The notes beneath the pieces are model-generated. The model saw nothing but the letters and a program-made list of their open reading frames with translations, made no database searches and was not told the origin of the DNA. This document shows, piece by piece, positions 4,650 through 6,730 of a DNA stretch of 57,886 nucleotides (its first letter is position 1; every line of letters begins with the position of its first letter). The stretch is from Chloroflexota bacterium (lineage in GTDB: Bacteria; Chloroflexota; UBA6077; FW602-bin22; JAMCYS01): contig JAMCYS010000117.1 of the NCBI GenBank assembly GCA_023473795.1, positions 1-57,886 on the forward strand, in the 5' to 3' direction. Position numbers and translations under genes: made by a program.

Positions 4650-5282
4650 ATGCCCAAAGGCTGGCGCAAGGAGCAGAGCCGCGACCCCTACTTCCGCCGG
4701 GCCAAGGCGGAGGGCTACCGCGCCCGCTCGGCCTACAAATTGCTGGACCTCGACGCCAAGTTCCACCTCCTGGGGCCGGGCAAGCGGGTGCTCGATCTGG
4801 GTGCGGCGCCCGGCAGCTGGACGCAGGTGGTGCTGCGGCGCTGTGGCGGCCACTGCACCGTGGCGGCGGTCGATTTGCAGGAGATGGAGCCGGTGCCGGG
4901 GGCCACGCTCATCCAGGGCGACATCGCCAGCCCAGCGATACGGGCCCAGATGGCGGCGGCGCTCTCCGGGCCAGCCGACCTCGTGCTCTCGGACGTCTCT
5001 CCCAGGGTTTCTGGCATCGCCCTCACCGACCACGCTCGCTCCCTCGCCCTGGCCGAGGCGTCACTGGACGTGGCCGAGCACTTCCTCAAGCCGGGCGGCG
5101 CCTTCGTGGTCAAGGTCTTCATGGGCGAGGACTTCAACCGCATCCTCGTGCTGGCGCGGAGCCGCTTCGCCAAGGTGCAGGTCTTCCAGCCCCAGGCCAC
5201 GCGGGAAGAGAGCCGGGAGCGCTACGTCGTCGGCCTCGGCTTCCGCCCGCCCGCCGGAGAGGCAAAGGAAACGCCGGGTTAG
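4650..5282 (+). CDS. rlmE: 23S rRNA (uridine-2'-O)-methyltransferase RlmE/RrmJ
   Basis: FtsJ-family enzyme that methylates the 2'-OH of the A-loop uridine (U2552 in E. coli numbering) in 23S rRNA, using SAM. Its 210 residues match the family. The K-D-K-E catalytic tetrad is visible: lysine in YRARSAYKLLDLD, aspartate in DLVLSDVSP, lysine in FVVKVFMGEDF and glutamate in REESRERYVVGLGF. The SAM motif is VLDLGAAPGSWTQVVL. It starts directly after the preceding methyltransferase stop with no gap, consistent with co-translation. Confidence 0.95.
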   Translation: MPKGWRKEQSRDPYFRRAKAEGYRARSAYKLLDLDAKFHLLGPGKRVLDLGAAPGSWTQVVLRRCGGHCTVAAVDLQEMEPVPGATLIQGDIASPAIRAQMAAALSGPADLVLSDVSPRVSGIALTDHARSLALAEASLDVAEHFLKPGGAFVVKVFMGEDFNRILVLARSRFAKVQVFQPQATREESRERYVVGLGFRPPAGEAKETPG

Positions 5283-5421
5283 TCGCTGCATCCGACCCGT
5301 GAACGGAGTCACGCTACGTACTACTCTCAACGCCACCCGCAGACAGGCCGACGCCCCTGTGCTATGATGGCCCGGCCCGCTTCGCCCAAGCGAGCGAAAA
5401 CAGTGGGGAGGTCCTGGCACG

Positions 5422-5877
5422 GTGATGACCGGCGACGAAGCGGAAGCCAAGACGATCGAGTACTTCTACGGCGGCTACAACTGAGCACAGTCCGTCCTGC
5501 AGGTTCTGCAGGAGGCCTACGCGGTGAAGGGCGGGGTCGACCCCAGACCGGCCTTCGCTCTGGGCGGGGGCGTTGGCCACGCGGGCGATGTCTGCGGCGC
5601 CATTCTGGGAGGGGCGGTCGCCGTGGGCGAGCTGGTGGGTGACCACGTGGCGGACGTGCGGCAGGCCAAGGACAAGGCGCGCGAGCTGGTGCTGCCCTTC
5701 TACCGCGACTTCCAGGCGGAGTTCGGTGACGTCGATTGCCGGCCGCTGTCCGGCTTCGACCTCAGCACCGCGGAGGGCTTCCAGGCCTACAGAGCCAGCA
5801 CCGCCAAAGACGAGCGCTGCCGCCGCTTCGTCATCTACGCCGTGCGTCGACTGCTGCCCCTGGTGGAGCAGGTCTAA
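5422..5877 (+). CDS. Probable selenoprotein, C-GCAxxG-C-C family
   Basis: Putative redox protein of 151 residues if the in-frame TGA at 5482-5484 is read as selenocysteine (residue 21). The frame from GTG 5422 runs TIEYFYGGYN, then TGA, then AQSVLQVLQEAYA. In this family the residue after YN is an invariant cysteine, so the TGA sits exactly at the active-site position. The remaining signature is present downstream: GGGVGHAGDVCGAILGG, then DVDCRPLSG and DERCRRF. GGGGAGG at 5405-5411 supports GTG 5422 (ATG 5425 also possible). The gene is followed after one base by a metallo-beta-lactamase-fold gene. An alternative is a nonsense mutation with a short product from GTG 5524. Confidence 0.8.
5485..5513 (+). 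promoter_or_regulatory. SECIS-like hairpin after in-frame TGA
   Basis: Immediately downstream of the TGA, TCCTGCAG (5495-5502) pairs perfectly with CTGCAGGA (5506-5513) around a GTT loop. The loop G lies 19 bases after the stop triplet, inside the distance range known for bacterial SECIS elements, which place a guanine in a small apical loop for SelB binding. The hairpin falls within coding sequence, as bacterial SECIS elements do. The function is inferred from geometry and context. Confidence 0.65.
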
Positions 5878-5878
5878 G

Positions 5879-6730
5879 ATGAGCGTGCGCCTGACAACCC
5901 TGACCGACAACGCCGTGCGCACGGGCAAGCTGGGCCTGCTGGCCGAGCACGGCCTCTCCATCCTGGTCGAGGCGCATGGCAAGCGGGTTCTCCTGGACGC
6001 CGGCCAAACGGATACCGCGGTGCGCAACGCGCGGGCCCTCGGGCTGGACCTCGGCGCCGTCGACGCCATCGTGCTCAGCCACGGTCACCAAGACCACACC
6101 GGCGGGCTGAGGGCCGTGCTGCGGGAGGTTTCCCGGCAGGGCCGCGAGGTGCCGGTGTACGCCCATCCCGACCTCTGGACGGCCCGCTACTCGCTGCGAG
6201 AGGGCGAGCGCCCGCGCTTCACGGGCCTGCCCTACCGCGAGGAGGGCATGGCGGCCCTGGGGGCGCGCTTCCACTACTCCGCGATCCCGCGGGAGGTGTT
6301 TCCCGGCATCTGGACCACGGGCGAGGTCCCGCGGCGCAACGACTTCGAGAAACTGGACCCCGCCCTCAAGGTGCGCCTGTCCGACGGCTGGGGCCAGGAC
6401 CAGATTCTCGACGACCAGGCGCTGGTGGTCACCTCCGCCCGAGGGCTGATCGTGGTGCTGGGCTGCGCCCACGCTGGCATCGTCAATACCCTGGCCCACG
6501 CGCGGCAGTTCACGGGCGAGCGGCGCCTCCACGCCGTGGTCGGCGGCACCCACCTCGGTCTGGGCTTGAAGGAGCAGCTGGCGCCGTCGGTGGCTGCTTT
6601 GCGGGAGATGGGCATCGAGCGCCTGGGCGTGTCGCACTGCACGGGGCCCGAGGCGTCGGCCGAGCTGGCGCGGGCCTTCGGGCCGGCTTTCTTCTACAAC
6701 AACGCCGGCAGCGTGGTGGACCTGGGCTAG
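5879..6730 (+). CDS. MBL-fold metallohydrolase (methylaminobenzene phosphate synthase-like)
   Basis: A 283-residue metallo-beta-lactamase-fold protein of the branch annotated as 7,8-dihydropterin-6-methyl-4-(beta-D-ribofuranosyl)aminobenzene-5'-phosphate synthase. The metal motif SHGHQDHTGG (about residues 65-74) is intact. Further conserved parts are LLAEHGLSILVE at the N terminus, VLGCAHAGIVNT, GGTHLGLG and a C-terminal VSHCTG with FFYNNAGS. The actual substrate is not known; bacteria without methanopterin keep many such paralogs. It starts one base after the selenoprotein stop and is probably co-transcribed, so a thiol or redox partnership is possible. Confidence 0.85.
   Translation: MSVRLTTLTDNAVRTGKLGLLAEHGLSILVEAHGKRVLLDAGQTDTAVRNARALGLDLGAVDAIVLSHGHQDHTGGLRAVLREVSRQGREVPVYAHPDLWTARYSLREGERPRFTGLPYREEGMAALGARFHYSAIPREVFPGIWTTGEVPRRNDFEKLDPALKVRLSDGWGQDQILDDQALVVTSARGLIVVLGCAHAGIVNTLAHARQFTGERRLHAVVGGTHLGLGLKEQLAPSVAALREMGIERLGVSHCTGPEASAELARAFGPAFFYNNAGSVVDLG

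Follow-up and report, generated by a model that had tools for sequence, protein, structure and literature searches.

A probable selenocysteine form of the C-GCAxxG-C-C protein family in an uncultured member of the Chloroflexota

The DNA analysed here (the window; 57,886 nucleotides) is contig C29 of a draft genome, referred to below as G000, from the phylum Chloroflexota (4.44 Mb in 170 contigs, 96% complete). Between an rlmE-like ORF (4650-5282) and a gene for an MBL-fold hydrolase lies a reading frame of the C-GCAxxG-C-C family that is open except for one internal TGA (Table 1). Third-position GC in the segment that precedes the TGA (5425-5481) is 0.89, similar to that of the neighbouring genes. 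As anticipated in a preliminary description of the locus, standard gene calling with translation table 11 delivers only a truncated ORF that begins at GTG5524.

Table 1. Features at the C-GCAxxG-C-C locus, in window coordinates
Feature	Position	Strand	Basis and remarks
C-GCAxxG-C-C family (PF09719) gene, predicted selenoprotein with TGA readthrough	5422..5877	+	Start GTG5422 or ATG5425, stop TAA5877; profile scores, alignment
Shine-Dalgarno-like GGGGAGG	5405..5411	+	Sequence; 10 nt 5' of GTG5422, 13 nt 5' of ATG5425
In-frame TGA, predicted selenocysteine (residue 21 from GTG5422)	5482..5484	+	Invariant first Cys column; same-column TGA in seven further genes
Putative bacterial SECIS hairpin UCCUGCAG[GUU]CUGCAGGA	5495..5513	+	Arms 5495-5502 and 5506-5513, loop GTT 5503-5505
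Cys58 codon, family Cys (DVCGA)	5593..5595	+	Invariant in alignment
Cys106 codon, family Cys (DCRPL)	5737..5739	+	Invariant in alignment
Cys133 codon, family Cys (ERCRR)	5818..5820	+	At least 90% conserved; invariant among Sec forms
Short ORF expected from table-11 gene calling	5524..5877	+	GTG start behind AGGAGG 5510-5515; lacks U21; under TIGR01909 cut-off
MBL-fold hydrolase gene	5879..6730	+	PF00753; nearest solved structures 2p4z, 3h3e

The product obtained by reading through the TGA exceeds the curated cut-offs of both family profiles, with 69.3 bits against PF09719 (cut-off 27) and 50.9 bits against TIGR01909 (cut-off 47.4), whereas the product from GTG5524 alone reaches 42.1 bits with TIGR01909 and falls below its cut-off. 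When 15 homologs from Chloroflexota are aligned with Sec written as Cys, residue 21, C58 and C106 occupy invariant columns and C133 a column that is at least 90% conserved, and U21, C58, C106 and C133 together give the cysteine pattern of the family if Sec is allowed in place of Cys. The preliminary description had put the TGA at the invariant first cysteine, between conserved coding stretches and with the later family cysteines intact; the alignment agrees on each count, and the region 5' of position 5524 is kept in both Sec and Cys homologs. The frame almost certainly encodes a Sec form of a C-GCAxxG-C-C protein of about 150 residues.

We surveyed homologs in the host genome and in 400 Chloroflexota genomes; scans of named genomes turned up a single relative, the Chloroflexi MAG JAMCWX010000006.1 of the same order. 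An in-frame stop is present in eight homologs from five genomes, namely the window gene and a paralog on contig C15 of the same genome, one gene each in G029 and G392, and two in each of G081 and G011. In all eight the stop is TGA, never TAA or TAG, and it lies in the column of U21, which holds either Sec or Cys across the homologs. A frame disrupted differently in related genomes had been named beforehand as the pattern that would speak against selenocysteine; no stop was found elsewhere within the matched stretch in any surveyed homolog. The C15 paralog (L009/L043, G000:C15:37035-37472) reads SGYN-U-AQSILQVLQ around its TGA and has a 7-bp hairpin with a GUC loop, while a third paralog in the host (C110) has no stop. 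The five genomes with TGA forms all possess tRNA-Sec, which on its own is weak evidence because 304 of the 400 surveyed genomes do so. G113 (G113:C41:1465-2388 and whole genome) was considered as a case of Sec loss, since its family protein is a Cys form and no tRNA-Sec was detected in this 86%-complete assembly. This was rejected because G113 carries a TGA-bearing selD, and the missing tRNA-Sec is probably an assembly gap.

The perfect 8-bp hairpin that had been noted behind the TGA, with a GTT loop starting at the 19th base (18 nt between TGA and loop), agrees with the published model of the bacterial SECIS (bSECIS), which specifies a loop of 3-9 nt, a stem of 4-16 bp, a G in the first two loop positions and a distance of 16-37 nt from the UGA (PMC13188914). 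In DNA fetched from the host genome, 61 of 1981 TGA trinucleotides (3.1%) are followed by a bSECIS-type hairpin that is equally stable or stabler, and seven of 1981 (0.35%) if the loop must also lie at +16 to +20. Synonymous recoding of the peptide of the window gene yields such a hairpin 10.7% of the time, and the LQVLQ peptide written in preferred codons is palindromic in itself. Given these background rates, the window hairpin taken singly is unusual to a moderate degree, and the significant part is its recurrence across the TGA genes.

For the comparative count a hairpin had to have its loop at 16-21 nt and an energy of at most -6 kcal/mol, and the 31 rows of the Cys set were reduced to 29 usable ones by removal of two off-target pattern hits. 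Of the TGA genes, 8/8 have a SECIS-like hairpin in the +16 to +21 range, as against 1/29 usable Cys homologs (Fisher p about 1e-7, for genes that are related and hence not independent). A 7-bp hairpin is kept in the second G011 gene (G011b) despite a different peptide (LLAAAEA), and in the C15 paralog and one G081 gene (G081a) TTG..CAA stands in place of CTG..CAG, so that synonymous substitutions in both arms preserve a stem pair. Formal covariation over the eight aligned hairpins is not significant (the score was reached in 133 of 500 shuffles), in part owing to a shifted hairpin register in some of the genes, and the case for a SECIS therefore rests on hairpin presence and absence. In relatives from the same order or class, selD genes with a TGA have variants of UGGCGCAG[GUN]CUGCGCCA at 33 nt from the TGA, in contrast to 18 nt for the window hairpin; the apical core GCAG[GUN]CUGC is common to the two, which would be expected of elements read by a single SelB.

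The preliminary description had proposed a search for selA, selB, selC and selD, and the first three are present in the host genome: a tRNA-Sec with anticodon tca as read by ARAGORN (71.9 bits), SelA (544 bits) and SelB (363 bits). Formate dehydrogenase alpha (FdhA; L118, G000:C97:29350-31365; 798 bits) is, as judged from its sequence, a further selenoprotein of this genome. It has a TGA at the canonical Sec site (CARI-U-HSPTVAGL), followed by the hairpin GGUGGCC[GGUCU]GGCCACC with its loop at 18-19 nt; this loop and that of the window hairpin are both of the G/GU type, but the stem sequences differ. Together with the tRNA-Sec, SelA and SelB, the FdhA TGA supports decoding of UGA as Sec independently of the window gene.

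The search for selD had a different outcome, as no match to canonical selD above the cut-off was obtained in the 96%-complete host assembly (best 83.6 against 125 bits). Among 21 genomes checked, SelD is present in 18, nearly always with a TGA of its own, and none passes the cut-off in G000, G019 and G169, which belong to the same order. We consider a gap in the assembly the likeliest reason why it is missing from the host genome. It is very unlikely that this lineage decodes UGA as Sec (with tRNA-Sec, SelA, SelB and at least three TGA genes) without canonical SelD and obtains selenophosphate from a diverged AIR-synthase/HypE-like protein such as that encoded at C107:6679-7683. This gene (L069) is located directly upstream of selB; it was rejected as SelD, its likeness being only that of a general AIR-synthase/HypE-like protein, and similarly weak SelD matches occur in relatives that have true SelD.

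We put the probability at about 95% that the locus encodes a C-GCAxxG-C-C selenoprotein of about 150 residues with Sec inserted at the UGA by way of SelB and the downstream hairpin. As TGA differs from TGC and TGT by one base and the assembly is fragmented into 170 contigs, one has to consider a pseudogene, in which a nonsense mutation or a sequencing error interrupts what used to be a Cys gene; this is nevertheless highly unlikely, as the same column holds TGA in seven other genes (for a total of eight in five genomes, with intact flanking frames), every TGA gene has a downstream hairpin that Cys homologs lack save 1/29, and apart from the TGA the frame is open, with third-position GC like that of coding sequence. 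It is equally unlikely that translation truly begins at GTG5524 and that the upstream similarity is a relic. The perfect AGGAGG at 8 nt spacing and the ORF delivered by standard gene calling would suit such a start, but the conserved region 5' of 5524 includes the invariant first Cys/Sec, the 3' arm of the hairpin shares bases with the AGGAGG, and neither AGGAGG nor a start codon is found at this place in the related gene of G029. Insertion of another amino acid at the TGA, for example Trp, would likewise keep the frame open, but the probability of this is negligible: homologs show Cys in the column, not Trp, and a tRNA-Sec with anticodon tca, SelA, SelB and an FdhA TGA at the expected Sec site all occur in the genome. 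The overlap of the AGGAGG with the SECIS arm (window 5510-5526 up to the GTG) is an observation in its own right, and because of this motif a short form lacking Sec could additionally be made from GTG5524.

With selenocysteine as the preferred reading, SelB would bind the hairpin and bring Sec-tRNA-Sec to the UGA, where the ribosome would place Sec at the first invariant family cysteine and continue to TAA 5877. The position of the codon, the hairpin, the presence of tRNA-Sec, SelA and SelB, and the conservation of TGA or Cys in the column are shown computationally; insertion of Sec in the cell we infer from these, and insertion through SelB and the SECIS is the best-supported mechanistic step. 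Sec21 may serve in redox chemistry, with Cys58, Cys106 or Cys133 as its probable partner (Cys58 being the most likely), and a selenenylsulfide between U21 and C58 would be the simplest reading of a low-confidence, mostly helical model in which both residues start predicted helices. This AlphaFold model is poor (pLDDT 62.6, from a two-row alignment), and no fold match was found for it; PDB profile matches to TAL-effector repeats were dismissed as summed sub-threshold repeat matches. As regards function only, the Sec and Cys residues might serve as ligands of an Fe-S cluster or metal instead of carrying out thiol-selenol catalysis. Profile comparison gives a weak match of the N-terminal region, from roughly U21 past C58, to split-Soret cytochrome c (1h21), a protein that holds an iron-sulfur cluster. 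We regard ligation as improbable, although by a smaller measure than the alternatives above, as the E-values are marginal (0.006 and 0.016) and Sec usually replaces Cys at catalytic rather than structural positions.

The statement in the preliminary description that this family has selenocysteine members was correct. C-GCAxxG-C-C selenoproteins are tabulated in PMC9312934 and PMC13188914, the latter crediting form 1 to Zhang & Gladyshev 2007 and form 2 to 2008, and the NCBI name of TIGR01909 itself reads '(seleno)protein'. Sec in the family is thus already on record, and the window gene is a new, well-supported member from a poorly annotated lineage, differing from tabulated forms 1 and 2 in its origin from an uncultured Chloroflexota. 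Relative to the TIGR01909/PF09719 family, its product lies above both curated cut-offs and has the four family Cys positions, one of them as predicted Sec, with the SECIS within the cistron. Similarity to the DVU_1555 family C-GCAxxG-C-C protein (NF045669) is distant (37.4 bits, below the cut-off of 103). The HUGP/GUXX-star fusion selenoprotein (NF045501) is credited in PMC13188914 to Haft & Tolstoy 2025. Residues 5-147 of the product of the window gene align to positions 8-154 of the 236 in this profile with 78.2 bits (cut-off 325), but the protein has YN-U-AQ in place of the HUGP motif and lacks the C-terminal GUXX-star domain, and by sequence it is not a member. The name of the motif and the colinear match of the G392 homolog to the first 162 positions (287.7 bits) suggest that the HUGP Sec and U21 occupy the same column. 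This homolog (L105, G392:C16:452-892) is a stand-alone HUGP-type selenoprotein gene (GHH-U-GPSVLQV) whose frame ends after the NF045501 match; beyond the stop, in the same frame, there is a CCPRC-containing stretch (LLYTGSCCPRCAED) that is perhaps the second domain of NF045501 as a separate gene.

Annotation of the window gene is corrected accordingly, as its product would otherwise lack the probable active-site residue, and eight predicted Sec genes of the C-GCAxxG-C-C family are added for the Chloroflexota. The apical SECIS core is common to unrelated selenoproteins of one lineage. The Sec form marks the probable reactive cysteine of the family, and the question of the family's biochemical role thereby becomes testable.

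The MBL-fold gene starts one base after the selenoprotein gene (TAA 5875-5877, ATG 5879), as had been described, and is probably cotranscribed with it. The suggestion that its product is a partner did not hold, and we rejected the enzyme as a functional partner since the pairing is not conserved beside the family gene: at the other TGA or Cys loci that were examined, tblastn located no MBL homolog close to the family gene, and among the 400 genomes both genes occur within about 2 kb only in G337, on opposite strands. Other neighbours are seen elsewhere. In G081 (L049, contig C44) the interval from about 2.2 to 7.2 kb holds, one after another, a cysK-like gene, mnmA, larE, the Sec gene and queG, and in G113 mnmA is near the Cys form of the family. 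The mnmA, larE and queG neighbours hint at a sulfur-transfer context rather than a conserved operon.
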